Shown here piece after piece: positions 2,253-26,573 of a stretch of 46,022 nt of DNA. The DNA is from a virus. The translations under genes and the position numbers were made by a program. How positions within the stretch are numbered: the stretch's first letter is position 1; every line of letters begins with the position of its first letter. Where the stretch lies: the IMG/VR virus record IMGVR_UViG_3300018080_000261, positions 1 through 46,022 of that record, one strand, 5' to 3'. Below the pieces are notes generated by a model, which saw nothing but the letters and a program-made list of their open reading frames with translations, was not told the DNA's origin and ran no database searches.

Positions 2253-2768
2253 TTAGTGCCAGTCCCACCGCTCAGCAAGTGTGGTAGGATCTATAATCAG
2301 CGTTGCGCGGTGCCTACCGGCCGCGTATCGCATACATGCCATTGTACCACCCGGTTTGCTGGAAGATACAGCCACCAATAGTTCCGAGTTGTCCACCATC
2401 CACTTGTTACGGGCGTGGAGTTTCCATGATTCATAAGGGTCATCATTTATGTAGAATACTTCATCCATCTGGTTGAGCAAAGTGAAATAGTGAGCCTTGC
2501 TACGTTCGGGCCACTTCACGTGGTAACTTTGAAATGGTATCGCAGCAAAGAGCTCACATTTGTTATTACCATCCTGCTGAAAGCGAATTCCAGCAGCCAT
2601 AGCCAATTGGTCAGTTCCCAACGCACCCCCAAAGATGAATCTCGTGAACCCAAAATCGTAGGAACGCGAGATCACCTCCAGGAGTTTGTTTTCAACCAAC
2701 GCGAGTGTTGGACTGTTATACCCTCCCAGTCCCGGAGGCCTGTGGCCAGAAAAGCTTAGAGCTCTCAT
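2253..2768 (-). CDS. YpsA/DUF1273-like SLOG-fold protein, 171 aa
   Basis: The sequence shows the signature of the DUF1273/YpsA branch of the SLOG (Rossmann-like) superfamily: SGHRPPGLGG at the N-terminus, GGALGTDQLA at about 48-57 (a Gly-rich nucleotide-binding turn), and SKPGGTMACMRYA near 137-149. Family members bind nucleotides or related ligands. Bacillus YpsA affects cell division, but phage versions have no established role. The start is supported by a GGGAGGG ribosome site 10 bases upstream, although this makes the gene overlap the previous one by 53 bp. Confidence 0.8.
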   Translation of the reverse strand: MRALSFSGHRPPGLGGYNSPTLALVENKLLEVISRSYDFGFTRFIFGGALGTDQLAMAAGIRFQQDGNNKCELFAAIPFQSYHVKWPERSKAHYFTLLNQMDEVFYINDDPYESWKLHARNKWMVDNSELLVAVSSSKPGGTMACMRYAAGRHRATLIIDPTTLAERWDWH

Positions 2769-3279
2769 CGTCTATGTTCCCTCCCCTGTCTTTGATTACT
2801 CTGACCATGTCAGGCAACGGCGTTATGTTGGACAACTGAACAGCGTACTTTGGCATACGCTCATGGAGTTCAATCATTACCTCAGGGAATAGGGTCATAC
2901 CTCTGGTGAGCAACCTCGCCCAGTAAGACATCTTCTTAGCATCAGGCCTGGTAAATCCGATACCATTAACCGTCTCAGTGGTATCCTTACGTTTCTCTTC
3001 TTGGGTCTGACGATTGTAAATGGCCATCAAACCCCTCCGTGCCCATTCAGGATCCGTAGCGAGAGCATCTTTCACGAGACGAACGTACTCCGCCTTGATG
3101 GCATCCTTTTTCTTGGACAACGTACCAAGTTTCTTCCTACAACCAGAACACACCTTGAAAACAGCCTGATCAATCTTGTGTTCCGTATTCGCAGGCTGGT
3201 CACATCCACTGATCTGACACAGCACCACGAAGTAGTTACTTCTGCCGATTTTCTTCTTAATAAGATTAACCGTGTTCAT
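2716..3279 (-). CDS. Hypothetical protein with zinc-finger-like Cys cluster, 187 aa
   Basis: A GGAGGAG ribosome site precedes the ATG. The N-terminal half carries C-x4-C (CQISGC) and, about 20 residues on, C-x2-C (CSGC), a spacing suited to one zinc site of a treble-clef or ribbon type. The rest is helical and basic. Its 3' end overlaps the YpsA-like gene by 53 bp. No family is recognised; a nucleic-acid-binding role would be a guess from the Cys pattern. Confidence 0.6.
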   Translation of the reverse strand: MNTVNLIKKKIGRSNYFVVLCQISGCDQPANTEHKIDQAVFKVCSGCRKKLGTLSKKKDAIKAEYVRLVKDALATDPEWARRGLMAIYNRQTQEEKRKDTTETVNGIGFTRPDAKKMSYWARLLTRGMTLFPEVMIELHERMPKYAVQLSNITPLPDMVRVIKDRGGNIDDESSKLFWPQASGTGRV

Positions 3280-3290
3280 GTGTACTCCTC

Positions 3291-3410
3291 CTACAGTCTA
3301 TGCAGGTGCACATAACTCTCACCTGGTTTGAGGTTAATCTGGAGTACCAGACCCCAGAAGTGAATGGATGCTGCGCCTCTACGGAACAGCACCTTTAAGA
3401 ACATCGCCAT
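3291..3410 (-). CDS. Small hypothetical protein, 39 aa
   Basis: This short frame (MAMFLKVLFRRGAASIHFWG...) follows a near-perfect ribosome site, AAAGGAGGTGATACT, eight bases before ATG. Its stop overlaps the ribosome site of the next gene, the normal spacing in this operon. The first half is hydrophobic and the C-terminus basic. Function unknown. Confidence 0.55.
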   Translation of the reverse strand: MAMFLKVLFRRGAASIHFWGLVLQINLKPGESYVHLHRL

Positions 3411-3426
3411 AGTATCACCTCCTTTT

Positions 3427-3912
3427 TTATAAATCTTTAAGTTGGATGGCTCCGGATTTGATTCCATTCAAACGCCCCTGAAGTTTGGTGATGGTCAGCT
3501 GGTGGTCACGAACTTCTCCTTCCAACTGTTTCACCTTTTTCTCCAGCTCTGTGTTCTTGTTTCTGTACTGGATGATTTTCTGAACTACTGCTTCTCCTAT
3601 CTCATCTAATCTGACCTTGTCCGTATGCTTTGCGCCTGAACCTGGGGTGGGGACAGCAGCGGCAGTAGTTTTCTTTACTTTCTTACCATTCTTAATCTTT
3701 TTCCAGACGTTCAGATCATCACTATTCTTTGTTACGGTAGCCTCTCCAATCTTGCGTCGGTAATTCAGAACAGCCCATGACCGTTTTTGTGTAAGTTCAT
3801 TAACAGGTAGATCAGCCAATGAAATAAGATCGTTTCCGGTCACGGTATCTCCTATTTCAAGACTGTCCCATACCTCCTTCATAAGTTTACCTTCTTTGCT
3901 TGTATTTCCCAT
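3427..3912 (-). CDS. Hypothetical coiled-coil protein, 161 aa
   Basis: The start is preceded by AAGGAGAAGGAGACGG. The N-terminal 70 residues look like a small helical domain that could be winged-helix or HTH-like (TGNDLISLADLPVNELTQKR...). A Lys/Thr/Ala/Pro linker follows, then a clear coiled coil from about 105 to 150 with heptad-spaced Leu/Val and Lys/Glu. That architecture suits an oligomeric DNA-associated or assembly protein, but no family was identified. Confidence 0.6.
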   Translation of the reverse strand: MGNTSKEGKLMKEVWDSLEIGDTVTGNDLISLADLPVNELTQKRSWAVLNYRRKIGEATVTKNSDDLNVWKKIKNGKKVKKTTAAAVPTPGSGAKHTDKVRLDEIGEAVVQKIIQYRNKNTELEKKVKQLEGEVRDHQLTITKLQGRLNGIKSGAIQLKDL

Positions 3913-3929
3913 AATCCGTCTCCTTCTCC

Positions 3930-4271
3930 TTATTCGTATAGTTTACATCTGCCCTTGTCCATCAGATTAGGACAATCTTCACATGTTTCACGTGTAAGAC
4001 ATTCATCTTTCACGAAGTTAGTCTTAACCCCCTCCGTTCTTGCCCATTCAACACCTTCTCTACAAGCACTGGACTTGTGTTGGTGGTAAATCAACCCACG
4101 TTCACCAACATCCCAGTAGTTTCCAATCTCCTCATCATTGATCATACACATGATTGCGGGGAAGAACCCTCCAATACATTCATGGATTATCATTGTAGGT
4201 TCATGAATTGGCCCTAAGATGTCCAGTTGTGCCACATAGAGAAGTTCTTGTGCTTGTTGCCTGTTGTTCAT
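3930..4271 (-). CDS. Cys-rich hypothetical protein, 113 aa
   Basis: The start is taken as the ATG just after GAGAGGTGATACA, so its ribosome site overlaps the stop of the upstream gene; a longer frame to 4301 lies inside that gene. The C-terminus has a compact Cys set (C..E..CEDCPNL...GRC) like a small Fe-S or zinc site. There is no signal peptide or membrane segment and no recognised family. Confidence 0.6.
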   Translation of the reverse strand: MNNRQQAQELLYVAQLDILGPIHEPTMIIHECIGGFFPAIMCMINDEEIGNYWDVGERGLIYHQHKSSACREGVEWARTEGVKTNFVKDECLTRETCEDCPNLMDKGRCKLYE

Positions 4272-4275
4272 TGTA

Positions 4276-4596
4276 TCACCTCTCATAAATTTTGAATACA
4301 AACATCTTTCTCAGTGGTTTGTAAATCTCAGGCTGTATCTTAATACTAAAGATAGTGCCTAAAAACTGTCTGAGTTCATTGTAGAAATTCAGTTCCCAAT
4401 CAGGTATTTCCTTTTTAGTACCCTCAATGATCTCAGTTTCAACTACATGTTCAACCCATTTGACTGTACCAGCATCTTGGTTATAAATCTTTCTAAGTAT
4501 GTGTATGAGATCTTCACCAAGCATTTCTCCTTTAGTCCTCTCTATCTCCTCCGCAACATGCTCCTTCTCCAGTTTTCTTCTTGTAGCCTCGTCCAT
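4276..4596 (-). CDS. Hypothetical charged protein, 106 aa
   Basis: AAAGGAGGTGATGTTC places the ribosome site eight bases before the ATG of MDEATRRKLE; an ATG further upstream sits too close to the SD. The protein is helical and charged with no cysteines or membrane segments. The start lies inside the 3' end of the upstream signal-peptide gene (65-bp overlap). Function unknown. Confidence 0.6.
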   Translation of the reverse strand: MDEATRRKLEKEHVAEEIERTKGEMLGEDLIHILRKIYNQDAGTVKWVEHVVETEIIEGTKKEIPDWELNFYNELRQFLGTIFSIKIQPEIYKPLRKMFVFKIYER

Positions 4597-4810
4597 GAAC
4601 ATCACCTCCTTTGTTGTGTATTATCTTCCGTATGTCATCAGGCCCATACCACCTGAGTATCATAGTCTTATAGGGACCATCTACAATAAGAATGTCCTGT
4701 GGTGGTTTCAGTGCCTCTATCTGCTCTTCCAAGGTGGGAACGTAGAGCCCATCAGTTATGGTGTGTGGTAGAAGTAAAACGAGCAGCAGTGTAAATAGCA
4801 GCGTCTTCAT
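4532..4810 (-). CDS. Small secreted or membrane-anchored protein, 92 aa
   Basis: Start MKTLLFTLLLVLLLP follows GGAGGTGGGAAC. Residues 1-20 form a classic signal sequence or membrane anchor: a Lys then a Leu-rich core. The mature part is polar with TLEEQIEALKPPQ and a Gly/Lys-rich C-terminus ending in CCGG. No lipobox is seen directly after the hydrophobic core. The last 65 bp are shared with the next gene and carry that gene's ribosome site, so the C-terminal extension may be tolerated rather than functional. Confidence 0.5.
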   Translation of the reverse strand: MKTLLFTLLLVLLLPHTITDGLYVPTLEEQIEALKPPQDILIVDGPYKTMILRWYGPDDIRKIIHNKGGDVHGRGYKKKTGEGACCGGDRED

Positions 4811-4837
4811 GTTCCCACCTCCTTTTAGAAAAGTCAC

Positions 4838-5008
4838 TGGTATGAAATGTAATGCGGGTTCTAAAAGCCAAAAATCGGTACAGCCACTGGGTGGCTATCA
4901 GGTTACCTCTTAGGGACCCGGTAACAGGGTTCTCACCCGTTAACCAGTCATTCAACCGGTTAATAGGTCTAGTGGATACCAACGCCCACCTCCACGTCTG
5001 ACTTACTG
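4838..5008 (-). ncRNA. Structured intergenic RNA candidate upstream of the secreted-protein gene
   Basis: Read on the minus strand this gap is a chain of hairpins: TTAACCGGT...ACTGGTTAA (9 bp with one G-U), GGGT-GAGA-ACCC (a GNRA tetraloop), TTACC...GGTAA, and AGCCAC-CCA-GTGGCT close to the ribosome site. No frame with an SD covers it. The density of strong pairs argues for a structured leader or a small RNA. No known RNA family was recognised. Confidence 0.45.
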
Positions 5009-5056
5009 TCAGTAGTGGCGGCAGGCCCAAATGGACCATAGATCATCGGTAACCAT
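5009..5056 (-). CDS. Possible 15-codon micro-gene or leader peptide
   Basis: A good ribosome site (AAAGGAGGAGCACCTATA) precedes ATG and a 15-codon frame, MVTDDLWSIWACRHY. It sits between two structured stretches. It could be a leader peptide that couples translation to folding of the downstream RNA, or chance. Confidence 0.3.
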   Translation of the reverse strand: MVTDDLWSIWACRHY

Positions 5057-5194
5057 TATAGGTGCTCCTCCTTTCCTTTGGAACAGCTAAGCACAAGTAA
5101 TGATACTCCCGCCCTTGCAGTGTGCCTCTGCGCAGGAGTGGTGTCTCACCCCAGAAAGAGTGAAGCGGGGTGGAGAACCCCGCAGATAAGAGCC
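5057..5194 (-). ncRNA. Structured intergenic RNA candidate
   Basis: The minus strand contains GCGGGG-TTCTCCA-CCCCGC, a very stable hairpin, then CTGCGCAG self-complementarity and a GCACA...TGTGC pairing. It lies directly after a 31-codon membrane-protein gene. No gene with a plausible start is seen apart from shadows of other frames. Confidence 0.4.
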
Positions 5195-5290
5195 CTAGCC
5201 AATTGACATAAGCCAGCAGCAGCAAAAGGCAACCTTAGTAGCAACTAAGATTGTTACCCAAATAGAAGCTGCTTCTACGTCAAGATACAT
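5195..5290 (-). CDS. 31-aa single-span membrane protein
   Basis: GGAAAGGAGGTGATGCC precedes ATG. The peptide (MYLDVEAASIWVTILVATKV...) is almost entirely one hydrophobic segment with a CCCW cluster. It is one of a run of five tiny membrane proteins at 5195-5837, each with its own strong ribosome site. Confidence 0.55.
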   Translation of the reverse strand: MYLDVEAASIWVTILVATKVAFCCCWLMSIG

Positions 5291-5340
5291 GGCATCACCT
5301 CCTTTCCTCGAATGTGCGCGTGAAAAGTCAAATGATGGTT

Positions 5341-5427
5341 CTAATAGTGAAAAAGGCGTACAGCCAACAGGTAGGCACACATCAATAGGTATTCACTTAC
5401 ATACAGTGTACCAATGGCATACGCCAT
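5341..5427 (-). CDS. 28-aa hydrophobic peptide
   Basis: AAGGGAGGTGATAAGCC precedes ATG. The product (MAYAIGTLYVSEYLLMCAYL...) is hydrophobic with a C-terminal RLFHY. The last 30 bases of the gene resemble a segment at about 4857-4893, upstream of the secreted-protein gene, although that copy has a 1-base shift and is not coding. This suggests a shared or duplicated stretch. Confidence 0.5.
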   Translation of the reverse strand: MAYAIGTLYVSEYLLMCAYLLAVRLFHY

Positions 5428-5447
5428 GGCTTATCACCTCCCTTCAT

Positions 5448-5570
5448 TTAGCAGCTTTTCAAGTATAAAAGGGCTATTCCCAAGAGAACAGCCCATGTGA
5501 GAAGACCAAAGATAAGACAGTTCTTAAAACCAATAATAGTCTTATTTGGCCTTGGCGGGCCTTTCCCCAT
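5448..5570 (-). CDS. 40-aa single-span membrane protein
   Basis: GAAGGGAGGTGGTATT precedes ATG. A basic N-terminus (MGKGPPRPNK) is followed by a transmembrane helix of about 22 residues and a short KSC tail. Position and style match its neighbours in the small-membrane-protein cluster; function unknown. Confidence 0.6.
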   Translation of the reverse strand: MGKGPPRPNKTIIGFKNCLIFGLLTWAVLLGIALLYLKSC

Positions 5571-5588
5571 AATACCACCTCCCTTCTT

Positions 5589-5723
5589 CTAATCATCAGA
5601 GCTACAATGAAGCCTTATGGTCTCAGCCAATAGTTTTATAAAGAGCCAAATGAGTGTACATGGTACTAGAATAATCATAATCAATGCATAACCTAATGGA
5701 GGTACTTTTTTCTCATTTTTCAT
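5589..5723 (-). CDS. 44-aa single-span membrane protein
   Basis: GAAAGGAGAATGGATT precedes ATG. It has a Lys/Glu-rich N-terminus, a transmembrane helix at about residues 11-32 and a short polar C-terminus (LHCSSDD). Function unknown. Confidence 0.6.
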   Translation of the reverse strand: MKNEKKVPPLGYALIMIILVPCTLIWLFIKLLAETIRLHCSSDD

Positions 5724-5738
5724 AATCCATTCTCCTTT

Positions 5739-5837
5739 CTATTCATTTTCTTCTGCTAAACCAACAACTAAATACAGAATACCCACTATGATGCCGATGT
5801 AGAAAAGTAATTCTGCAACAAACTTGAGTGTATCCAT
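5739..5837 (-). CDS. 32-aa single-span membrane protein
   Basis: AAAGGAGATAACATT precedes ATG. Nearly the whole peptide is a transmembrane helix (FVAELLFYIGIIVGILYLVV) with an acidic tail. It is the first of the cluster and follows the structured element at 5859-6071. Confidence 0.6.
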   Translation of the reverse strand: MDTLKFVAELLFYIGIIVGILYLVVGLAEENE

Positions 5838-5858
5838 AATGTTATCTCCTTTACCTAC

Positions 5859-6071
5859 CCTTTCATGAGGGCCCCTGTGGTTAGGAGTGCTGTACTAACG
5901 TGCCATGGTCCCTTGATTTACACCCAGCAAGTACGCTGGTGCATCATGACACACAGCCCACAGAGACCCTCGTGGAAAGGTATCAACCAGGGCAAGGGAT
6001 GCGGCTCCCTCTAGTCTTAGAGAGTAGTGAAGGGAGAGCGTTTATGCTGTCCTCAAGCCCCAGTTGATAAT
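5859..6071 (-). ncRNA. Structured intergenic RNA candidate with a long closing stem
   Basis: A 22-23-nt arm at 5958-5980 pairs with one at 5859-5880 through CCTTTC/GAAAGG, GAGGG/CCCTC and CTGTGG/CCACAG, broken by small internal loops. Inside are GCTGT/ACAGC and the hairpin CCAGC-loop-GCTGG, so the whole folds as a branched structure of about 122 nt. A further GCTC.CCCT/AGGGAGC stem follows at about 6001-6040. No gene with a ribosome site fits. No known RNA family was recognised, and which strand is the RNA is inferred from the operon direction. Confidence 0.5.
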
Positions 6072-6368
6072 CTATTTCCTACGATCTTTGGGTTTATCCA
6101 TAAATCGTCGGTGTTGATTGCGTCTATCATCGGCGCCTATCCTGCGCTCATGCCCGTGGTATCTAATAGCATTCTTGATAATAATACACATCAACGTGTT
6201 AATCTTGTAAGTCAAGGAGTTTAATGCTGACGCCCAGTCAATAAGTTCTTGTCTTTCAACGCCATGCATGCTCTCTAAGAGGGATAATTGAGTTTCAATA
6301 AGATCTGAAGTATCTTGAAACTGTCTAAATACCTCTGTCTTGACTCCTTCGAACTGTCTGGTCTTCAC
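6072..6368 (-). CDS. Hypothetical protein, 98 aa, GTG start
   Basis: AAAGGAGGTGATA is followed by GTG-GTG-AAG. The second GTG, eight bases after the SD, is chosen, giving MKTRQFEGVKTE.... The frame extends slightly upstream but those starts overlap the SD. The protein is helical with a moderately hydrophobic stretch (INTLMCIIIKNAI) and a strongly basic C-terminus (RRNQHRRFMDKPKDRRK), suggesting nucleic acid or membrane contact. Family unknown. Confidence 0.55.
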   Translation of the reverse strand: MKTRQFEGVKTEVFRQFQDTSDLIETQLSLLESMHGVERQELIDWASALNSLTYKINTLMCIIIKNAIRYHGHERRIGADDRRNQHRRFMDKPKDRRK

Positions 6369-6471
6369 CACTATCACCTCCTTTCCTAAAGTATTTAATT
6401 ACGAGCAGTATCACCAGGGCTGATAGTAACAACCCCAGTGATGTGTACATGAATTCCCAAAACGCTGTCAT
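6325..6471 (-). CDS. 48-aa membrane protein overlapping the next gene
   Basis: The ATG overlaps the TGA of the upstream gene (ATGA), a typical coupled start. Residues 4-27 form a transmembrane helix (YTSLGLLLSALVILLVI) followed by a basic stop-transfer (KYFRKGG) and a polar tail. The tail shares 44 bp with the following gene in another frame and includes that gene's ribosome site. Confidence 0.5.
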   Translation of the reverse strand: MTAFWEFMYTSLGLLLSALVILLVIKYFRKGGDSGEDQTVRRSQDRGI

Positions 6472-6752
6472 GCATTCTCAGTCTCTGAGTGTACCCTCAC
6501 AGCCTCCAAAGATGTAATCTCAACAGGATGGTGGCACCCACATGTAGGGCACTGATACTCTTCAACATTCTTAAGAACTTCAAACTCATCCTTGCATTCA
6601 ACACAAGTAACGAGTCTCATCTGGTTCTTGAGAACGTCGCCTAACTTTTGCATTTGTCTCTCCTTTCTCTGTTTGATTAAATGAATTAACAGTAGTGTTA
6701 ACACACAGATTGTAAATACACCAACTCTACACCAGAAGTTATGGCACTCCAA
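6468..6752 (-). CDS. Membrane-anchored zinc-ribbon protein, 94 aa, TTG start proposed
   Basis: The C-terminal 60 residues hold CVEC and CPTCGCHH, a zinc-ribbon pattern. Upstream and in frame is a hydrophobic helix (VGVFTICVLTLLLIHLI) ending in KQRKERQ. A TTG start two bases after the previous stop, with GGGAGG 11 bases before it, would give the full 94-aa protein. An ATG at 6653 with its own AAAGGAGAGACAA would give a soluble 61-aa form. Both could be made; the annotation uses the long form because otherwise a coding-like gap would remain. Confidence 0.5.
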   Translation of the reverse strand: MECHNFWCRVGVFTICVLTLLLIHLIKQRKERQMQKLGDVLKNQMRLVTCVECKDEFEVLKNVEEYQCPTCGCHHPVEITSLEAVRVHSETENA

Positions 6753-6753
6753 T

Positions 6754-6924
6754 CTAAATCTTACCTCCCTTCTTCTGTTTCCTTGTTTCGTTAATGAGTC
6801 CATTCAATGATGAAGTTAACGCTTGACTGTTAATCCACCAATCATTAATGTCACATTCCGGATCATCGACCTTTGCGAAGTGTTCTCTCAAAGTCTCGAT
6901 GTACTTCTCTAACTCTTCGTTCAT
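6754..6924 (-). CDS. Hypothetical protein, 56 aa
   Basis: AAAGGAGGTGAGGTA precedes ATG. The product begins MNEELEKYIETLREHFAKVDD, an acidic helical region, and ends with a Lys-rich tail (RKQKKGGKI). It is the first gene after the structured element at 6953-7160. Function unknown. Confidence 0.6.
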   Translation of the reverse strand: MNEELEKYIETLREHFAKVDDPECDINDWWINSQALTSSLNGLINETRKQKKGGKI

Positions 6925-6952
6925 TACCTCACCTCCTTTAATGAATGTGCCA

Positions 6953-7160
6953 CCGGAAAGGGTCTTGAGCTTTCACTATGTTTAGGTAAAATCGCGACGA
7001 TCATTCAGCTGCAACCGAAATGGGAGGTGTGATAGACGGCATGCCTGTTCACACTCCTTTACCCTACTAATAGTTTCCACTCAAGTCTTTCCGGTTGTCC
7101 CGCTCTATTCTGGAAGCCTCTAGGGCAGTTTACCTCTTGCGAGAACCCAAGTCACGGGAC
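6953..7160 (-). ncRNA. Two-domain structured RNA candidate
   Basis: Domain 2 (6953-7094) is closed by CCGGAAAG/CTTTCCGG and CTTGAG/CTCAAG, then ACTAT/ATAGT and GGTAAA/TTTACC, with an inner arm GGAGGTGTGA/TCACACTCC around a GGCATGCC palindrome. Domain 1 (7097-7160) is closed by GTCCCG/CGGGAC and contains CTC-GCAA-GAG. The 247-bp gap has no gene with a ribosome site. Such nested long-range pairing is unlikely by chance. It does not fit a tRNA (no T-loop) and no family was recognised. Confidence 0.55.
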
Positions 7161-7171
7161 TGGCACGATGG

Positions 7172-7450
7172 TTACATTTTCTTCAATCTTAATGCTACCT
7201 GATCCATCTCTGCTTCTCTAATGAGTTTCCTACCATAGGCAAGTCCCATTTCTATGAACATGCCAGTAGCAGCAGATAGCAGAGCCATCCATCCCATGAG
7301 TTTCCTTGGATCCCAGTTGCTGTCAGTGATATATCTATACAGTCCTGATTCTACCATACTGTAATGACACAGCACCGCATCGTATGTGACCCATACCAAT
7401 ACAGCACATGAGATGCTGAACATAACCAATGCTACCAAAGTTCCTTTCAC
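7172..7450 (-). CDS. Two-span membrane protein, 92 aa, GTG start
   Basis: GAAGGAGGTGAAGACGA precedes GTG, and the GTG overlaps the upstream TGA (GTGA). Two hydrophobic segments are visible: MKGTLVALVMFSISCAVLVW at the N-terminus and LMGWMALLSAATGMFIEMG in the middle. A charged amphipathic C-terminus (RKLIREAEMDQVALRLKKM) follows. Size and topology are holin-like, but a better holin candidate exists at 40.6 kb, so no function is assigned. Confidence 0.6.
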   Translation of the reverse strand: MKGTLVALVMFSISCAVLVWVTYDAVLCHYSMVESGLYRYITDSNWDPRKLMGWMALLSAATGMFIEMGLAYGRKLIREAEMDQVALRLKKM

Positions 7451-7602
7451 TCGTCTTCACCTCCTTCCTCTGTATCATAAGCTCCGATCTCAAACATGTC
7501 CTGTTCTTCCTCTTGTTCTTGCTTGCGTTTCTGTTTGGTCGGATCAAGTTCATCCTTTTCCATGTCGATAAAAGACCCGTCGAACTCTCCATAGTCGGGC
7601 AT
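7447..7602 (-). CDS. Acidic 51-aa hypothetical protein
   Basis: The frame starts MPDYGEFDGSFIDMEKDELD, is rich in Glu/Gln/Lys and ends EEGGEDE. Its ATG overlaps the upstream TAA by one base (TAATG), and its TGA overlaps the GTG of the next gene. The ribosome site AAGGAGGCAAGTA lies in the upstream gene. Confidence 0.6.
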   Translation of the reverse strand: MPDYGEFDGSFIDMEKDELDPTKQKRKQEQEEEQDMFEIGAYDTEEGGEDE

Positions 7603-7790
7603 TACTTGCCTCCTTTCTTCTGGTTCTTTAGAAGTCGCTTCTTTTCTGCCAGTAAGCGCTTCTTCTGTTCTAGCAGTTGTTTCTGGTACTTCCTTTCGAT
7701 GGAATCAGATGTTTCCCACCATCCAAGACCTTTGGTGAGCCAACCGATGAAATAGATAATTCCTCCTAGCGCTAATAGATCACCAAGCAT
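7602..7790 (-). CDS. 62-aa membrane protein with basic coiled tail
   Basis: CGAAAGGAGGTGCTATT precedes ATG. One transmembrane helix (MLGDLLALGGIIYFIGWL) is followed by a long, highly basic, heptad-like helix (QLLEQKKRLLAEKKRLLKNQKK). The tail should lie in the cytoplasm and could bind nucleic acid or another coiled coil. Function unknown. Confidence 0.6.
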   Translation of the reverse strand: MLGDLLALGGIIYFIGWLTKGLGWWETSDSIERKYQKQLLEQKKRLLAEKKRLLKNQKKGGK

Positions 7791-7822
7791 AATAGCACCT
7801 CCTTTCGAATAGCTCCTAACAG

Positions 7823-8056
7823 CTATTCATCGTTGTTCTCGGGATGAACAGGTGTACGGTTCCATTCACAGAAAATCAAGGCACAGTCACCATCTAACAA
7901 CGTAACTAGTTTGCAGTAGGGCCTACAGAAATATGGTCTTTCCACATCTACCCCATCGGTAAATGCGCACAATCCATTAATAGGCCCAGTTCTAGGGCAG
8001 TCCTTGACAACTACATTGGGGCCTTCTATGCGGGCCCTTCGCTCTTTGTGTTTCAT
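7823..8056 (-). CDS. Cys-rich hypothetical protein, 77 aa
   Basis: GGAAGGGAGGAAAAAGAA precedes ATG, and the ATG overlaps the upstream stop (ATGA). Six cysteines (KDCPRTG, GLCAF, FCRPYCKL, DCAL, FCEW) are spread through a small basic protein, enough for one or two metal sites. No family recognised. Confidence 0.6.
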   Translation of the reverse strand: MKHKERRARIEGPNVVVKDCPRTGPINGLCAFTDGVDVERPYFCRPYCKLVTLLDGDCALIFCEWNRTPVHPENNDE

Positions 8057-8352
8057 TTCTTTTTCCTCCCTTCCATCTCTCTTAGGGTTTGTGTGTCTGC
8101 CTCATCCAATACCCCAAGGCCTTCCTTCATCTGCATGTATGGGATATCGTCCATGGCCTGGTCTTCTTCCAATTCTTCCCAGGTAGGCTCGTATCTATCC
8201 TCTGGGTATTTCTCCAGAAGATAAGCCTCTATCTCTTCCAGTTCCATGTTTTCCCAGTCTGGACAAGAATCATCCAGGTCTTCAGCCACACTATCCCCAA
8301 CGATGGGAGTAGTGTTGTAGCGACGGTAGTATTTCACGAGTGTAGGGTGCAT
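8053..8352 (-). CDS. Acidic hypothetical protein, 99 aa
   Basis: AGAAAGGAGGTGCGT precedes the ATG of MHPTLVKYYRRYNTTP. In-frame sequence further upstream belongs to the leader element at 8384-8443 and is not counted. The protein is strongly acidic in the middle (ENMELEEIEAYLLEKYPED) and ends in RKKK. The conserved leader suggests RNA-level control. Confidence 0.6.
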   Translation of the reverse strand: MHPTLVKYYRRYNTTPIVGDSVAEDLDDSCPDWENMELEEIEAYLLEKYPEDRYEPTWEELEEDQAMDDIPYMQMKEGLGVLDEADTQTLREMEGRKKK

Positions 8353-8383
8353 ACGCACCTCCTTTCTGCCCAAGGCCACACAT

Positions 8384-8443
8384 AATGCTGTGATGGGCAC
8401 AGCGCCCTGAGGAGCAGTTCTCCTCAATTTTTTTACGGAGGGG
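8384..8443 (-). promoter_or_regulatory. Conserved leader RNA element, copy A
   Basis: On the minus strand: CTCCGT, an A-run, TTGAGGAG-loop-CTCCTCA, GGGC, then GCTGTG-CCCAT-CACAGC. Copy B at 8665-8724 has the same order with compensating changes in the arms (GAGGGG/CCCCTC and GCTGC/GCAGC). The GGG before the second hairpin can pair with CCC in its loop, an H-type pseudoknot. Read on the plus strand, the first hairpin followed by TTTTTTT looks like a rho-independent terminator, so a plus-strand transcript is an alternative. Confidence 0.6.
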
Positions 8444-8459
8444 TCCGGAGACCCCTCCA
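8439..8459. repeat. GC-rich perfect hairpin
   Basis: GGAGGGGTC and GGACCCCTCC form an almost perfect inverted repeat between the 55-aa gene and leader copy A. It has no adjoining T-run in the operon direction, so it is more likely an RNA-stabilising or processing hairpin than a terminator. Confidence 0.5.
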
Positions 8460-8466
8460 TAAGGGG

Positions 8467-8634
8467 CTACTTACCCCTTTCCCACGCCCTTCTCCAACTT
8501 CGCCGCCTTCTGGCTTTGAAGTTGACCACTACCAGGCTATCCTTCACCTGGTGTCTGTGGTACAAGCACCCTTCGCACTTCGAGGGGTGATCGCAGAGGG
8601 AAAGGTATACACAGTTAGGCTGTGTAGCAGGCAT
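8467..8634 (-). CDS. Small Cys/Arg-rich protein, 55 aa
   Basis: CGGAAAGGAGGGCATC precedes the ATG of MPATQPNCVYLSLCDHPSKC. Residues C8, C14, C20 and C23 with H16 could bind a metal; the C-terminus is very basic (KARRRRSWRRAWERGK). It lies between leader copies B (upstream) and A (downstream). Function unknown. Confidence 0.55.
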   Translation of the reverse strand: MPATQPNCVYLSLCDHPSKCEGCLYHRHQVKDSLVVVNFKARRRRSWRRAWERGK

Positions 8635-8664
8635 GATGCCCTCCTTTCCGCCACAGTGGCGATT

Positions 8665-8724
8665 GATGCTGCGATGGGTGCAGCGGCCCAGAGGGGAACA
8701 TCCCCTCAATTTTTTAACGGAGCA
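8665..8724 (-). promoter_or_regulatory. Conserved leader RNA element, copy B
   Basis: This copy starts right after the stop of the exonuclease gene and ends about 30 bases before the 55-aa gene. It matches copy A in the A-run, the first hairpin (GAGGGG-ATGTT-CCCCTC), the GGGCC linker and the second hairpin (GCTGC-ACCCATC-GCAGC). Structure is kept while arm sequence differs, which supports a real RNA element. Confidence 0.6.
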
Positions 8725-9405
8725 TTATACACCCAATGCCACCAACGTTGCAGCCATGTCCTCGTCCAGGTTGGGCTGACGTTGAAGGTATTCGAGGTAT
8801 TCCGAGGGCACCTCATCCACGGGGGTGTCTTTGTACTTGCCGAAGGGCATGACGACGTGAATGTTGGGCACATACGAGGTGTAGAGGAGCCACTCGATGG
8901 GGTTATTGCCGAGTTTAGCGCCAGCCTCTGCGTAAAGGCGTTCGAATAGCGCTTTGAGGACGAGCACGTCGCCGAAGGCGTCGTGCGGTCTTGCTTCTGG
9001 AAGTATGTCATCCAGACTGTAGACCTCGCGGAGGTGTTGAAGGTTGTGCATGCGGTACTCCGGGTGGAGTTGGCGCACGATCTTGAGGGTACAGATGTGG
9101 CGGTCCACCACCAGACCTTCGGCCTCCAACATTCTGATGTCGAAGCGAGCATTATGCGCCACCAGAGTATAGTCCCCAGAGTTCAGGAGGTCGCGGAGTA
9201 ATTCCCAGGTCGGTGAGCCCATGAACGTTGGGTACTTGCTGAGGCCAGAGTCTGTGACTCCACCCATCCTTGCGGCTTCCGGGTGGAGGGGGGTGTTAGG
9301 ATTGAAGAACTCGTTGACCTCATGACCGTTGTACTTGAACGCGACTTGGTACAGGCGATCAAAGTCACCGACCCCGGTGGTCTCAGTGTCGAGAAAGATG
9401 TACAT
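8725..9405 (-). CDS. DEDDh 3'-5' exonuclease (DnaQ-like) with DUF3820-like tail, 226 aa
   Basis: ExoI motif FLDTETTG (D6, E8), ExoII HNARFDIRML (D89) and ExoIII RPHDAFGDV (H141, D146) give a complete DEDDh active site, as in DnaQ epsilon and exonuclease X. Residues about 185-220 (MPFGKYKDTPVDEVPSEYL) match the short DUF3820-type module often found after such exonucleases. It probably trims DNA or RNA 3' ends during phage replication or repair. AAAGGAGGTTCACACC precedes ATG. It is the promoter-proximal gene of the leftward operon and has high GC content. Confidence 0.9.
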   Translation of the reverse strand: MYIFLDTETTGVGDFDRLYQVAFKYNGHEVNEFFNPNTPLHPEAARMGGVTDSGLSKYPTFMGSPTWELLRDLLNSGDYTLVAHNARFDIRMLEAEGLVVDRHICTLKIVRQLHPEYRMHNLQHLREVYSLDDILPEARPHDAFGDVLVLKALFERLYAEAGAKLGNNPIEWLLYTSYVPNIHVVMPFGKYKDTPVDEVPSEYLEYLQRQPNLDEDMAATLVALGV

Positions 9406-9655
9406 GGTGTGAACCTCCTTTCCAGAGTCCAGACCCTCAAAAGTTCAGGGGGTGGCCCTATATTTTATGTATGAGTAACAATTACCCATACTCATATATA
9501 TGGTACCCACAGGCTATAAATTTGTGCTGGTTGAATGTTTCGACCATCATAGTAGTAGTATAGTAACACCATAATATAGTATAAATAGTGTAGTATCTAA
9601 TGGTAATCATAAACAAACCTCCATTAGAGTAGGAACCCGTAATTTTTTGACAGGC

Positions 9656-9685
9656 CTTGCTTTCCGTAGGAAACAAGACTTTTTT
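9656..9685 (+). terminator. Probable rho-independent terminator
   Basis: Stem CTTGCTTTCC-GTA-GGAAACAAG (one bulge) is followed by ACTTTTTT. It would stop rightward transcription entering from the left, or act as an attenuator for a transcript starting near the TTGACA at 9647. Confidence 0.5.
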
Positions 9686-9815
9686 CAATTTATTTGGCTT
9701 ATAAAGCTTAATAAATCGAGTAAAACTCAATTTATTTTGGAAAAAGGCTTGACTCGCATCGTAGATGCTCGCTAGGCCTAAAATAGAAAACTGTAAATTT
9801 ATTTTCAGTTAGGCC

Positions 9816-9844
9816 TTGACAAGTCGACAATGATGTATTATATT
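9816..9844 (+). promoter_or_regulatory. Sigma70-like promoter of the rightward operon
   Basis: TTGACA (9816-9821), a 17-base spacer and TATATT (9839-9844) lie 36 bases before the first gene. The same -35 and -10 hexamers recur at 27141 and 30813 in this window. Confidence 0.75.
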
Positions 9845-9879
9845 ATGTACAGTAAAGTAGAAAGGAACGAATAAAAAAG

Positions 9880-10065
9880 ATGCCAGATCTTAGATACATT
9901 TACAAATTAGCCTTAACAGAACGAAAAGAAATAGAAGCGATGATATATCATTTAGAAACTAAAGAAGATATGAATAATCTTATAGATTATATTAATGTAA
10001 AGCTACAGGAAGCCTTCGAAATAGGAAAGAAGGTTGGAGGTAAGATAAATGAACCTATTGGATAA
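9880..10065 (+). CDS. Hypothetical protein, 61 aa
   Basis: First gene of the rightward operon. GAAAGGAAC lies 11 bases before ATG. The product is a small two-helix charged protein (MPDLRYIYKLALTERKE...). The frame ends just before a GATG-CTTCG-CATC hairpin at about 10067-10080. Function unknown. Confidence 0.6.
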   Translation: MPDLRYIYKLALTERKEIEAMIYHLETKEDMNNLIDYINVKLQEAFEIGKKVGGKINEPIG

Positions 10066-11334: not shown

Positions 11335-11614
11335 GGCTAAGTTGGACATGACGCTGAAACACCTATGTGGTAAGATTGATAATGTAGGAGAGCTAAACTA
11401 TTGTTTTACTACTATTTTATTAGACTACATGAATAGAAAAGGGATTAAGTACGAGAATTGGAATGCTGTAATGGGTGTTTTAGATTGTGTTGCTAAAGAA
11501 ATGTACAGGAGATGGGCTGCGCCGTATGAGGATATTAAGCGTGGATTAAATGGGGATATTAAACAAGGACCTTTTGGAGTAGATGGAAATGGAACTGACA
11601 GTAGAGATAACTGA
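11309..11614 (+). CDS. DUF6899-like phage protein, 101 aa
   Basis: MPYIEQKDRAKLD at the N-terminus and ENWNAVMGVLDCVAKEMYRRWAAPYEDIK in the middle fit a small phage family recalled as DUF6899, of unknown function. GGAGGAAAAGG precedes ATG. The naming is from memory of the motif. Confidence 0.65.
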   Translation: MPYIEQKDRAKLDMTLKHLCGKIDNVGELNYCFTTILLDYMNRKGIKYENWNAVMGVLDCVAKEMYRRWAAPYEDIKRGLNGDIKQGPFGVDGNGTDSRDN

Positions 11615-12113
11615 TTTTTGTACAGAGGGATGTGATTATTGTAGTACGAACGCACATGAAGAAGGAACGTTCTTGGATGTAAATACGATTTACAACTTTG
11701 TACGGAGAGCGTGTGCTGAACACAAAGTGGAACGGATTAACATTTCCGGTGGCGAACCAGTTGCACATCCGGACTTTTACAACATATTACAGTTTTGTAA
11801 AGGTTTTTGTAAAAACACTTGGGTGTACACTAACACTATAGAACAGTTAATGTACAACACAGGTGTAATTAAGGAAGTGAAAGTGGAAGCCAACGTGTGT
11901 TTGACGCCTGGGAGACACGTGTACATACCGAAAAATGTTAATAAAGCACACCTGTTACAGTTAGTGTCACAGGGTAGAGCGTCATCTATGACACCTGTAA
12001 CGTTTCACGTGTCCGGTAACATTAACGGGTGTAACAGATGTAAAGAGTGTAATCATCAATTATTACAGGCAGATGGCGAGGTCGTAGAGGCCCCATGTAA
12101 GAAGGATTACTAG
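11589..12113 (+). CDS. Small radical SAM domain protein, 174 aa
   Basis: CTEGCDYC (CxxxCxxC, residues about 11-18) is the 4Fe-4S cluster motif of radical SAM enzymes, and ISGGEPVAHPDF (about 51-62) is the SAM-binding GGEP element. The chain is short (full TIM barrels are usually over 200 aa) and ends with an extra cysteine set (CNRCKEC...APC) that may hold a second cluster. The substrate is unknown. The ATG at 11589 is preferred because GGAG lies nine bases upstream; the ATG at 11583 is only three bases away from it. Next to a zincin gene. Confidence 0.8.
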   Translation: MELTVEITDFCTEGCDYCSTNAHEEGTFLDVNTIYNFVRRACAEHKVERINISGGEPVAHPDFYNILQFCKGFCKNTWVYTNTIEQLMYNTGVIKEVKVEANVCLTPGRHVYIPKNVNKAHLLQLVSQGRASSMTPVTFHVSGNINGCNRCKECNHQLLQADGEVVEAPCKKDY

Positions 12114-20594: not shown

Positions 20595-21713
20595 ATGCCC
20601 TACAAAATTTCAGGAACAACTGATGCCGCTAGGATTATTATTATAGAAGAGAGTGGTTGGACTGTGGAATCAAATACAAATGAGTCCTCAGGGGCTTATG
20701 AAGTAGACTCTTTAGATAGTTCAAATAAATTAGTAATAGCTCGTAAGTCTGATGGTGAAGTTATTGCTTACGGTAATGTATCAGGTGAAGAATATACTGT
20801 TCCACAAAGAGGTGTATTTGCCGGTGGTTATAGTGCTAGTGGTTATAATAATGTAATGGATTATATTACAATCTCTACCGCCGCAAATGCTACTGACTTT
20901 GGAGACCTTACTGCTAATAGAAATAGAATACCAGGATGTTCTAATGGATCTACTGGTAGAGGTATTTTTATAGGAGGATATAGCGGAGCAAATTTACAAA
21001 GTGTAGATTATATCACTATTTCATCTGCCGGTAATGCTACTAGCTATGGAGACATTATGACTGAGTATAAAAGAGACGGTTCAGCTTGCTCAAATGCTAC
21101 AGGAGATAGAGCAGTATATGCTGGAGGATATACCGGTTCTGGTTCTCCTGATAATCAGATGGAGTATACAACTATATCTACTGGTGCCAACGCTACACAT
21201 TTTGGATACCTAAGGGATACCGGATATGACGATGTAGGGCTTGATAATGGAACTAATAATCGTGGTATTTTTGCTGGAGGATATAATTATACACATTCTC
21301 GTATGAATTGGATTGATTATATAACTATTACCAGTCCAGGCAACGCTACTGATTTTGGAGATCTTACTGCTGGGGCAGCAGAAAGACCAGGAGGTACTTC
21401 TAATAGAACAAATAATAGAGGATTAATTGCCGGAGGACATGATAGTGGTGGCTCAAAAAACAACATAGATTATATTACCATCACTTCTACTGGAAATGCT
21501 CAAGATTTTGGTGATTTAACACACGCATTATCACAGATGGCTGGAATTTCAAGCGGTACAAACGAAAGAGCAGTGTTTGCTGGTGGAGCTTATGGCGGTA
21601 GCGGAAATTATAATTATATTGATTACGTCACTATTTCATCAACTGGTAATGCTTCTGACTTCGGCGATCTTACATTAGGTAGATTAGACTTAGGCGGATG
21701 TGCAAACGCATAA
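20595..21713 (+). CDS. Tail-fibre-like protein with six-bladed propeller repeats, 372 aa
   Basis: Residues 1-70 are the shared module (MPYKISGTTDAARIIIIEESG). It is followed by six repeats of about 50 residues: RGxFxGGY, a variable loop, DYITISSxGNATDFGDLT, a variable loop, then SNGTNN. Six repeats fit a kelch-like six-bladed propeller. Loops between the conserved strands vary most, as expected for a binding surface. AAGGAGGAGAAAATATA precedes ATG. Confidence 0.75.
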   Translation: MPYKISGTTDAARIIIIEESGWTVESNTNESSGAYEVDSLDSSNKLVIARKSDGEVIAYGNVSGEEYTVPQRGVFAGGYSASGYNNVMDYITISTAANATDFGDLTANRNRIPGCSNGSTGRGIFIGGYSGANLQSVDYITISSAGNATSYGDIMTEYKRDGSACSNATGDRAVYAGGYTGSGSPDNQMEYTTISTGANATHFGYLRDTGYDDVGLDNGTNNRGIFAGGYNYTHSRMNWIDYITITSPGNATDFGDLTAGAAERPGGTSNRTNNRGLIAGGHDSGGSKNNIDYITITSTGNAQDFGDLTHALSQMAGISSGTNERAVFAGGAYGGSGNYNYIDYVTISSTGNASDFGDLTLGRLDLGGCANA

Positions 21714-21725
21714 GGAGGAATACTG

Positions 21726-22829
21726 ATGCCATACAAAATTTCAGGAACATCAAGTGAAGCAGTTAGAGTTATTATTATAGAAGAATCAGGTTGGACTATA
21801 GAATCAGACACTAATGAAAGTGCAGGGTCTTATGAAATAGACGGTTTAGATAGTTCCACAAAGTTAGTGGTAGCAAGAAAATCTGATGGTGAAGGTGTAG
21901 GATATGGTAATGTTAGTGGAAGTTTTTACGCACTTCCTACAGGAGTTATTAATAATGGATACACAGGATCTGTATGGTCTAATGTACTTTGTTATATCTC
22001 AATAGGATCTCCTGCTAATGCAACTAACTTTGGAGATTTAAATGGAGGTAATTGTGGTCAGGGAAGTGCTACTTCTAACGGTTCAAGTGATAGAGGATTG
22101 TTTGTTACACCAAACGGTGCATCTCCTGTAAACAGAATTGACTATATTACAATCTCTACGCCAGGCAATGCAGCTGACTATGGTGATATGACATTTACAT
22201 CGAGACTTACTTCATCTTTTTCTAATAATACTAATGACAGAGGTATTTATGGTTGTGGTAATGATGGTGCTGGTTATACAGCATTAGACTATTCTACTAT
22301 ATCAAGTACTGGTAATGCTGCTTCTTGGGGAACTGTAAATGATGGAGCTCACTCTAGAGCTGGAACATCTAACGGAACAAATAATAGAGGTATACTGGCA
22401 GGAGGAAATCCTGGCGGAGCTCCAGTTAGAACAATAGATTATATAACCATTACTACGTTAGCACATACTGCTGATTTTGGGGATTTAACAAACCCTGGGA
22501 GACGTGAATTAGCTGGGCTGTCAAACGGTACTAATAATAGAGGAGTATTTGGAGGCGGAAGAGATAACTTAGCAATGACTAACGTAATAGATTACATCAC
22601 AATAACTTCCACTGGAAATGCCTCTAACTTTGGCGACTTAACTGTTGCCAGGGACGGTATTTCTGGAACATCAAATATGGAAGATAACCAAGGCGTATTT
22701 TGTGGTGGAGATACTGGCTCTCCAAAAAATATAATTGATTATATAACAATTACCTCCACAGGTAATGCTACAGATTTTGGAGATTTAACACAGAATGCAT
22801 CATATACATCTGCATGTTCTGATGCTTAA
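21726..22829 (+). CDS. Tail-fibre-like protein with six-bladed propeller repeats, 367 aa
   Basis: Same plan as the previous gene: shared module (MPYKISGTSSEAVRVIIIEE), then six repeats ending in CSDA. Repeats 1-3 are more diverged (CYISIGSPANATNFGDL, for example) and repeats 4-6 are canonical. AAGGAGGAATACTG precedes ATG. Confidence 0.75.
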   Translation: MPYKISGTSSEAVRVIIIEESGWTIESDTNESAGSYEIDGLDSSTKLVVARKSDGEGVGYGNVSGSFYALPTGVINNGYTGSVWSNVLCYISIGSPANATNFGDLNGGNCGQGSATSNGSSDRGLFVTPNGASPVNRIDYITISTPGNAADYGDMTFTSRLTSSFSNNTNDRGIYGCGNDGAGYTALDYSTISSTGNAASWGTVNDGAHSRAGTSNGTNNRGILAGGNPGGAPVRTIDYITITTLAHTADFGDLTNPGRRELAGLSNGTNNRGVFGGGRDNLAMTNVIDYITITSTGNASNFGDLTVARDGISGTSNMEDNQGVFCGGDTGSPKNIIDYITITSTGNATDFGDLTQNASYTSACSDA

Positions 22830-22841
22830 GGAGGAAATAAA

Positions 22842-23951
22842 ATGCCATACAAAATAAGCGGTACCACAGAAGCTGCTAGGATTATTATTATAGAAGAGTC
22901 TGGATATACAATAGAAAGTAATACTAATGAATCCAGCGGAGCATATGAAGTAGATGCCCTAGACAGCTCTGATAAATTAGTAGTTGCTAGAAAGAGTGAT
23001 GGAGAAGTTTCCGTATACGGAAACGTTACACCTATAGAATATACTCCACCTCCTAGAGGGGTGTTTGCTGGAGGGTCAAACACGTCCAACGACGAAGTGA
23101 ATACTGTAGATTATATCACAATCAGCACCACTGGAAATGCCACAAATTTCGGAGATTTATTACAAGCTACACAACACTGTGGTGGAGCATCTAATGGACC
23201 AACAAATAGAGGAACATTCTTTGGTGGGAATAATGGTTCTGGTACTTGGTTTAACAACATTAGTTACGTAACAATTTCCACTGCCAGTAATTCAACTGAT
23301 TTTGGGGATTTAACCACTCATATGAGTCATTTAGATGGTGCCTCAAACAATACTAACAATAGAGCTATAGTTGGTGGTGGTTATGGAGATGCGTATGCCT
23401 CAATTAATAGTATTCAATATTTCACCATTTCTAGTTTGGGCAACACAACAGACTTTGGAGATCTAACCAGGACCAGGTATTCAGCAGGAGTGTGCGCGAA
23501 TGGTACTAACGATAGATGTTTAATCGCTGGACTTGATGCGGCTGTTCAATCTATAGATTATATTACAATATCCAATGCTGCCAATGCTATATCTTTTGGT
23601 AATCTTACAGCCCGTACAAAGTGTGATGTTAGAGCCACCTCCAACCTAACAAACAACAGAGGTGTATTTGGTGGTAGTAATGACGGATCAACGAATGGAA
23701 ATATTATTGATTATGTTACTATAAGTTCAACAGGTGATGCTACGGACTTTGGTGATTTAACTGTACCTCAAGGACAAGCAGGAGCAACTTCTAATGGGAC
23801 TAGTGAAAGAGGAGTGTGGGGTGGTGGAAGGACCACTCCAGTTAATATAAATGTAATTGGTTACATCACCATAAATTCAGCAAGCAATGCTACTGATTTT
23901 GGAGATCTTACTGTACGCAGAACAGGTATTGGTGCATGTTCTAATGCTTAA
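22842..23951 (+). CDS. Tail-fibre-like protein with six-bladed propeller repeats, 369 aa
   Basis: Shared module (MPYKISGTTEAARIIIIEES) plus six repeats ending CSNA. Its module is the closest to that of the interrupted gene at 19566, which carries a different propeller type, so modules and propellers assort independently. AAGGAGGAAATAAA precedes ATG. Confidence 0.75.
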   Translation: MPYKISGTTEAARIIIIEESGYTIESNTNESSGAYEVDALDSSDKLVVARKSDGEVSVYGNVTPIEYTPPPRGVFAGGSNTSNDEVNTVDYITISTTGNATNFGDLLQATQHCGGASNGPTNRGTFFGGNNGSGTWFNNISYVTISTASNSTDFGDLTTHMSHLDGASNNTNNRAIVGGGYGDAYASINSIQYFTISSLGNTTDFGDLTRTRYSAGVCANGTNDRCLIAGLDAAVQSIDYITISNAANAISFGNLTARTKCDVRATSNLTNNRGVFGGSNDGSTNGNIIDYVTISSTGDATDFGDLTVPQGQAGATSNGTSERGVWGGGRTTPVNINVIGYITINSASNATDFGDLTVRRTGIGACSNA

Positions 23952-24130
23952 ATAGTCCGGAGGGATGATGGAACGGGTGTGTAGATGGCTCCAACATAAA
24001 CTAAATCCATTGCATGTCTATTGTAGGTTAAATGGCAATTTTCTACCTAAAAGGACAGCTATGACTATTTGTATAATATATGAAAAGACACTATTTAAAT
24101 TTATAAGATTTTGTATAGGAGGAAACAATA
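23952..24130 (+). other. Gap between fibre genes
   Basis: The 179-bp gap contains a TAAACTAA (about 23996) similar to the first half of the late promoter-like element but without the rest, and a TATAAT near 24075. A 61-codon frame crossing into the next gene has no good ribosome site. No gene is called; it may be the scar of a lost fibre gene. Confidence 0.35.
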
Positions 24131-25207
24131 ATGGCACAAAACTGGGATAATTTTGAAATGGTTGTAGATGTAGCAAACCACGCGTGGGATGCTGATTATA
24201 CCTATGGACCTTCTGTATTAATAGATGGCTCTACTTATAAAATGTGGTACACTGGATATGATGGTAGTAGAGCGTATATACTTTACTGTACTTCTACTGA
24301 TGGTAAGACCTGGGGCGGTTTTACAGGAGTACTAAATTCTAGTGGTGGCGGCGAAGGAACATATGATGAAAGACATGTTATGATGCCATGTGTTATAAAA
24401 AATGGAGCTACATACCATATGTGGTATACCGGGTATACTAACGGAGGAGAAGCTAGAATTCTTCATGCTACTAGTTCAAACGGGACAAGTTTTACAGGTT
24501 TTCAATTGGTAGTAGATCATGGAGATGAAGGAACTTATGATACTAATATCTGTCAAAATCCATGGGTAATTCTAGATGGATCTACATACAAGATGTGGTA
24601 TCTTGGGAATGATAATGACCATGTTATATATTGTACTAGTACAGACGGTATTAATTGGACAGGGCATCAAAGAGTAATGACTGTGGGAGCAGAAGGTACG
24701 TATGACTCATCTTCTCTAGGCAGAGCTTGTGTTCTAAAAGATGATTCTACATACAGAATGTGGTATGGTGGTTATAATGGAACAAATACCAGAACCATAT
24801 ACTGTGATAGTAGTAATGGAACTAGTTGGAGTAACCACGAGATGGTTGTAGATATACAGAATACTCCTGATGGAGGAACTTATTTTGATAATACAGCCTC
24901 TGATAGGTGTGCTGTAATCAAAGATGGCGGAACTTTTGTAATGTGGTATTCAGGACAGAACCCTTCTAATTATGATAGTTATATTATATACACTGATTGG
25001 TCAACCACCTCTATAGGAGGAACATTAGGTGATAATGCTAGAATACTTGTTGTAAATGAAGCAGATTGGTCTCTAGAAGCAAACGAAAATAAGAGTTCTG
25101 GTAGTTATTCGGTTTCGGTAGGTAGTGGCGAAAAACTAGTAATAGCAAGAAAAGCTGACGGTGAGGTAGTAGCTTTTGGCGATGTTACACCTGTCTCATC
25201 ATTATAA
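24131..25207 (+). CDS. Fibre-like five-bladed propeller with the shared module at the C-terminus, 358 aa
   Basis: Five repeats of about 55 residues (EGTYD...P-C-V-I-K-D-G-S-T-Y-K-M-W-Y-x-G...ILYCTSTDGxxW) resemble five-bladed propellers of the GH43/GH32 type. The shared module (GDNARILVVNEADWSLEANENKSSG...) is at about 290-358, the reverse order of the genes before it. No catalytic acids could be assigned by eye, so a binding role is as likely as glycan cleavage. AGGAGGAAACAATA precedes ATG. Confidence 0.7.
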   Translation: MAQNWDNFEMVVDVANHAWDADYTYGPSVLIDGSTYKMWYTGYDGSRAYILYCTSTDGKTWGGFTGVLNSSGGGEGTYDERHVMMPCVIKNGATYHMWYTGYTNGGEARILHATSSNGTSFTGFQLVVDHGDEGTYDTNICQNPWVILDGSTYKMWYLGNDNDHVIYCTSTDGINWTGHQRVMTVGAEGTYDSSSLGRACVLKDDSTYRMWYGGYNGTNTRTIYCDSSNGTSWSNHEMVVDIQNTPDGGTYFDNTASDRCAVIKDGGTFVMWYSGQNPSNYDSYIIYTDWSTTSIGGTLGDNARILVVNEADWSLEANENKSSGSYSVSVGSGEKLVIARKADGEVVAFGDVTPVSSL

Positions 25208-25218
25208 GGAGGATATAA

Positions 25219-25899: not shown

Positions 25900-25908
25900 C
25901 GACCATAA

Positions 25909-25939
25909 TAAACTAACCTCTATATTATTAGGACCACGA
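25909..25939 (+). promoter_or_regulatory. Late promoter-like element, copy 2
   Basis: TAAACTAACC, TC, TATATTATTAG, GACCACGAT: close match to copies at 30861, 40521 and 44360. It lies between the fibre operon and the small-gene block. Confidence 0.6.
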
Positions 25940-25970
25940 TACTAAGTCAAAATAAAAAGGAGGGTTGAGG

Positions 25971-26177
25971 ATGGATAAACTAGATGGGATTAAACAACAC
26001 GAAGATGTACAATCTTGGTGGGGTAGGAATAAGGACACTTTAAGAAGTAACATTACGGCCGCTATGAAAGATAGTGAAAATAAAGAGACTTTCAAATTGA
26101 TGTTGGAATTACTAGAAAATGTAAAGATCAAGGAGAAAGAAACGAATGGAGAAAAAGAAACCTTGTCCATTTTGTAA
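25971..26177 (+). CDS. Hypothetical helical protein, 68 aa
   Basis: AAAAAGGAGGGTTGAGG precedes ATG (MDKLDGIKQHEDVQSWW). All-helical and charged. The 3' end overlaps the Lar-like gene by 32 bp. Function unknown. Confidence 0.6.
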   Translation: MDKLDGIKQHEDVQSWWGRNKDTLRSNITAAMKDSENKETFKLMLELLENVKIKEKETNGEKETLSIL

Positions 26178-26520: not shown

Positions 26521-26573
26521 TGGAGGTAACAAATAAGAAAAAATGTGGGGGTAAAAAAGGTGGTAAAAAGTAA
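26520..26573 (+). CDS. Possible 17-aa Lys/Gly-rich peptide
   Basis: AAAGGAGGAAAATA precedes ATG, which overlaps the upstream TAA (TAATG). The product, MEVTNKKKCGGKKGGKK, is short, very basic and resembles a free-standing histone-like tail. Coupling to the Hc1-like gene makes a real micro-gene plausible. Confidence 0.4.
   Translation: MEVTNKKKCGGKKGGKK

Follow-up and report, generated by a model that had tools for sequence, protein, structure and literature searches.

A duplicated, probably pseudoknotted leader before two unrelated small genes in a leftward phage operon

The window analysed here is the whole 46,022-nucleotide (nt) stretch of the IMG/VR virus record IMGVR_UViG_3300018080_000261, a 46-kb bacteriophage genome fragment in which genes lie on the minus strand from about 9405 to the left end, and on the plus strand from about 9880 onward. 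In the leftward operon, a block of about 101 nt is present twice on the minus strand, at 8722-8622 (copy 2, upstream in the operon) and 8440-8340 (copy 1), 282 nt apart. Copy 2 runs from a CUCCG motif to about codon 5 of a 55-amino-acid (aa) open reading frame (ORF; P0002, 8467-8634, minus strand), and copy 1 from CUCCG to about codon 5 of a 99-aa ORF (P0003, 8053-8352, minus strand). The 55-aa product carries four cysteines in its N-terminal half and an Arg-rich tail (KARRRRSWRRAWERGK), and the 99-aa product is acidic. Upstream of both (8725-9405, minus strand) is a gene for a DnaQ/RNase T-like DEDDh exonuclease (RNase_T match), the stop codon of which adjoins the 5' side of copy 2. Since the operon order is exonuclease gene, copy 2, 55-aa ORF, copy 1, and 99-aa ORF, the elements are intercistronic leaders in the minus-strand mRNA.

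An initial annotation of this DNA described two 60-nt elements in the order A-run, hairpin, GGG linker, and hairpin with a CCC loop, each just before a small gene. Both elements were found in this order on the minus strand, and each directly precedes its ORF, with a strong Shine-Dalgarno (SD) sequence. In full, each copy consists of CUCCGU, six or seven A's, hairpin 1, GGG, hairpin 2 (the loop of which contains CCC), the SD, and a start codon within a local hairpin. In copy 2, A6 (8715-8710) is followed by hairpin 1 (8691-8707; GAGGGG-AUGUU-CCCCUC, with arms at 8707-8702 and 8696-8691), the GGG linker (8689-8687), and hairpin 2 (GCTGC at 8684-8680, CCC at 8678-8676, and GCAGC at 8672-8668). 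The corresponding parts of copy 1 are A7 (8434-8428), hairpin 1 (8409-8425; GAGGAG-AACUG-CUCCUC, with arms at 8425-8420 and 8414-8409), GGG (8407-8405), and hairpin 2 (GCTGTG at 8403-8398, CCC at 8397-8395, and CACAGC at 8392-8387). A strong, very stable minus-strand hairpin with a UCCG (UNCG-type) loop (8437-8458) lies between the 55-aa ORF and copy 1, with none before copy 2, and its 3' arm takes in the CUCC of copy 1. Pairing of CUCC with the SD as a feature common to both copies was therefore rejected, as the CUCC of copy 1 sits in this stronger upstream hairpin.

The two copies are 81% identical (E = 1e-9). Their likeness exceeds the 60 nt first described, and extends with a constant 282-nt offset past the SD and start codon as far as about codon 5. 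Beyond this point it stops, the 55-aa and 99-aa proteins not being alike. Because homologous copies precede two non-homologous genes, it is the leader, rather than a gene, that was kept. A coding origin of the block was rejected in view of the linker indel and the mostly non-synonymous differences. A programmed frameshift signal, made of the A-run and a pseudoknot, was also rejected, since no open frame enters the A-run, the upstream genes stopping before it (stops at 8725 and 8467); the one-base indel between the copies also breaks frame conservation.

In the structured part, the copies are set apart by an indel and ten substitutions. Of the latter, four affect stems, where they make up one compensatory pair in hairpin 1 (A-U to G-C) and another in hairpin 2 (U-A to C-G); no pair is broken. 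When ten substitutions were placed at random, two compensatory pairs with none broken arose in 0.1% of the trials (P = 0.001), and at least two compensatory pairs at all with P = 0.007, values that serve as an approximate guide, as the simulation treats the stems as given. The closing G-C pair of hairpin 2 in copy 1, which is without counterpart in copy 2, was excluded from this count. The stem arms quoted in the initial annotation as differing while keeping their pairing are correct, but the covariation that it drew from them amounts to only one double change per stem.

Pairing of the GGG linker with the CCC of the hairpin 2 loop gives a predicted H-type pseudoknot in each copy on the minus strand. 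In copy 2 (8668-8689), stem 1 would be formed by GGG 8689-8687 and CCC 8678-8676, and stem 2 by GCUGC/GCAGC, with loops L1, L2, and L3 of 2, 1, and 3 nt. In copy 1 (8387-8407), stem 1 would be formed by GGG 8407-8405 and CCC 8397-8395, and stem 2 by GCUGUG/CACAGC, with loops of 1, 0, and 2 nt. A descriptor scan for compact GGG/CCC H-type pseudoknots over both strands of the window (92 kb) returned three places, compared with a shuffle mean of 0.35: the two minus-strand leader elements, and a palindromic hairpin. As the descriptor was composed with the elements already in view, the result attests to their rarity but does not amount to a blind test. The palindromic arms are uninformative on the strand, and G-U pairs give no help either. 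In the minus-strand fold, L1, of 1-2 nt, crosses the stem of 5-6 base pairs (bp), and L3, of 2-3 nt, crosses that of 3 bp. A plus-strand fold would need a loop of 1-2 nt to bridge 5-6 bp across the shallow groove, which is disfavoured in established pseudoknot geometry, and the fold therefore appears to suit the minus strand only, being sterically sensible on the mRNA alone. By a rough energy sum, the pseudoknot lies 1-4 kcal/mol below hairpin 2 alone. Folding energy is low for the two elements (z-scores of -3.0 and -2.1), as it is for a 120-nt segment over copy 1 (z-score of -4.6). As modelled, the pseudoknot probably forms in each copy.

Further downstream, both start codons lie in predicted hairpins, at 8629-8641 for the 55-aa ORF (GGGCA-UCA-UGCCU) and at 8346-8359 for the 99-aa ORF (GGUGC-GUAU-GCACC), both on the minus strand, and in both the AUG is taken up together with the 3'-terminal part of the SD. 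Of 97 gene starts that were scored in the window, these rank second and sixth; as folding predictions, they suggest that the step affected is translation initiation. The interpretation given in the initial annotation is thus supported in part: a selected RNA structure in the leader is backed by the compensatory changes between the copies, the pseudoknot geometry on the mRNA strand, the low folding energy, and these unusual start-codon hairpins.

The interpretation we favour, at a probability of roughly 45%, is that a cis-acting translational leader has been duplicated and serves at two points in the mRNA of the leftward phage operon. Each copy would fold into hairpin 1 and then into the compact H-type pseudoknot, next to which the start-codon hairpin would mask the SD end and the AUG. 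Access to the SD and AUG could be altered by upstream folding, or by a protein or ligand binding to the pseudoknot, and the likely role would be to set or switch translation initiation of both small genes jointly. The sequence itself displays the duplication with its compensated stem changes and its hairpins, along with the potential for the proposed pairing; pseudoknot formation, its control over translation, and the binding of some factor to it are inferred. Among possible binders, the nearest candidate is the 55-aa product, whose Arg-rich tail and four cysteines recall RNA-binding Arg-rich motifs. If this interpretation holds, the phage has placed a portable RNA control module before two unrelated orphan genes, and pseudoknot-based control of translation could be studied outside T4, in a compact system. 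Having two natural variants, with stems that are different yet paired, makes mutational tests straightforward. It is rather improbable, in our estimate, that the leader represents a class not described before, combining hairpin, compact pseudoknot, and start-codon hairpin into a portable switch that would be recognised by a small ligand or by an Arg-rich protein of the phage, and would jointly control unrelated small phage genes.

Several points, in addition to the design of the descriptor scan, weigh against a translational leader. The covariation rests on two paralogous copies only, both in one contig, and the claim is kept moderate for this reason. With more flanking sequence included, the nested fold of copy 1 changes in the part around hairpin 2. 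The two start-codon hairpins are offset by one base, and hence represent an analogous architecture and not in-register covariation; pairing of the SD is also predicted for several further genes in this operon. No binder of the leader was identified. Lastly, no homologue of the leader was found outside the contig in Rfam, related phage records, or pattern scans, but this is weak evidence, since near relatives of the window may be absent from the sets searched.

Rfam gave no match at gathering thresholds over the whole window, and none up to E = 5 over 3200-10000. A covariance model built from the two copies gave no convincing match in 49 related or exonuclease-bearing viral records; its one match was weak (11 bits), lay within predicted ORFs with pairs broken, and was taken as chance. 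Pattern scans of viral and genome contigs returned chance matches only. The first viral pattern, with a loop one base longer than in the true copies and thus unable to match them, found sequences resembling ordinary bidirectional terminators; the next two viral patterns gave no matches, and a looser one gave one viral and five genome matches, which were weakly scoring or had no paired second hairpin. Nothing meaningful was obtained by blastn against phage and plasmid records.

The strongest rival is a passive, recombinational cassette boundary, in which the ribosome-binding site (RBS) and hairpins were duplicated upon insertion of the 55-aa gene, as in a moron-like unit flanked by direct repeats of about 100 nt, the structure persisting mainly because the duplication is recent. 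The direct repeats bracket the 55-aa ORF with an exact 282-nt spacing and include the first codons, both small proteins are orphans, and the GC content around the elements is above that of most of the contig, all of which would be expected of such an event. However, the copies have diverged by about 19% overall, yet their stem changes are compensated, and the unusual pseudoknot geometry is kept in both; on balance, we regard this explanation as unlikely, though still worth serious consideration.

A function on the plus strand seems less probable. Hairpin 1 and its T-run would then be an intrinsic (Rho-independent) terminator, ending antisense transcripts or blocking read-through into the leftward operon. 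The terminator-like character of the first hairpin and T-run on the other strand, pointed out in the initial annotation, is borne out: both hairpin 1 copies score as plus-strand terminators, with a GC-rich stem of seven pairs followed by A-T7 or AA-T6, and the T-run is conserved. Unlike in ordinary intrinsic terminators, this arrangement is antisense to the operon; no plus-strand gene nearby feeds into it, and no shared promoter match is present in the upstream plus-strand sequence (the SD and start region). One or two A's also separate the stem from the T-run, and the GGG linker, hairpin 2 with its CCC loop, and the position before two start codons are left unexplained.

An RNA antiterminator analogous to HK022 put, in which two hairpins of the nascent RNA would modify RNA polymerase to read through a long operon, is very unlikely. 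The put RNAs are about 70 nt long, with two stem-loops, and occur as two similar copies positioned after early promoters (PMC9378689). The likeness lies in two adjacent hairpins within about 60 nt, and the presence of two similar copies of some 60-70 nt in one phage genome; moreover, the operon is long and, further downstream, contains strong intercistronic structures. By contrast, each copy here lies inside one operon and is joined directly to a start codon, not to one of two early promoters; a TATAAT is found upstream of copy 2 only, without a good -35, and no Rfam match of any kind was obtained. Least probable of all are palindromic operator or promoter repeats acting as DNA rather than RNA: the arms are palindromic on DNA as well, and TATAAT (8733-8728) lies directly 5' of copy 2, but this motif is missing from copy 1, the blocks end in an SD and start codon, and operators usually conserve their half-site sequence instead of undergoing compensatory exchange.

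The leader belongs to none of the known systems compared, i.e., T4 gene 32 operators, cluster K SAS/ESAS, and HK022 put. Like the translational operator of T4/RB69 gene 32, it is a phage mRNA leader in which a small H-type pseudoknot, here a predicted one, precedes the RBS; the descriptor scan found this geometry in both copies. In the T4 operator, more than 40 nt of unstructured, A/U-rich sequence with UUAAA repeats come after the pseudoknot, and the gene encodes the single-stranded DNA-binding protein (SSB) that binds it (PMC535899). The leaders here, in contrast, are present in two copies, and are GC-rich and hairpinned downstream of the pseudoknot, with no unstructured UUAAA stretch; the genes do not encode an SSB, P0002 and P0003 having matched no family in PHROG or Pfam. 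The start-associated sequences (SAS) and extended SAS (ESAS) of cluster K mycobacteriophages are likewise repeats with inverted-repeat parts at the starts of unrelated small phage genes, with a role proposed in translation initiation. SAS is a 13-bp sequence present in 11-19 copies, accompanied by 17-bp imperfect inverted repeats and conserved across phages (PMC3203893). Its consensus, GGGATAGGAGCCC, is not found at the start regions here (AAAGGAGGTGCGT and AAAGGAGGGCATC), which differ from SAS/ESAS in being two copies only, with another sequence and a predicted pseudoknot.

Regarding the neighbouring genes, a search for protein relatives of P0002 and P0003 found none, and structure prediction from their single sequences gave low confidence and was not used. 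The relatives found for the exonuclease are distant ones only, and the leader element is near none of them. For the terminase, the nearest relatives are other uncultured viral contigs, and named phages show less than 30% identity.

Elsewhere in the same operon, four intercistronic stretches of 138-247 nt on the minus strand fold unusually well, at 6925-7171 (z-score of -3.5), 5838-6071 (-4.4), 4811-5040 (-3.1), and 5058-5195 (-2.5). They have no Rfam match, no mutual similarity, and no nucleotide match in phage records or in 50 related viral records. The leftward and rightward operons are separated by an AT-rich divergent region with direct repeats (9482-9879), within which lies a strong sigma-70-like promoter match (9816-9844; TTGACA-17-TATATT). 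The phage also encodes a SLOG-family (YpsA) protein (2253-2768, minus strand) and a short radical SAM protein (11583-12113, plus strand). At 20595-27450 on the plus strand, several large ORFs carry arrays of diverged protein repeats of about 150 nt, and are probably virion or receptor-binding proteins. A repeat of about 30 bp, with a consensus near TAAACTAACC-n-CTATAATATTAG-RsCAT, occurs on the plus strand at 16931, 25909, 30861, 40521, and 44360, with a variant at 9610. The exact pattern was not found in 32 related records. It is located in intergenic gaps of the rightward operon, directly 3' of stop codons, and may be a phage-specific promoter.
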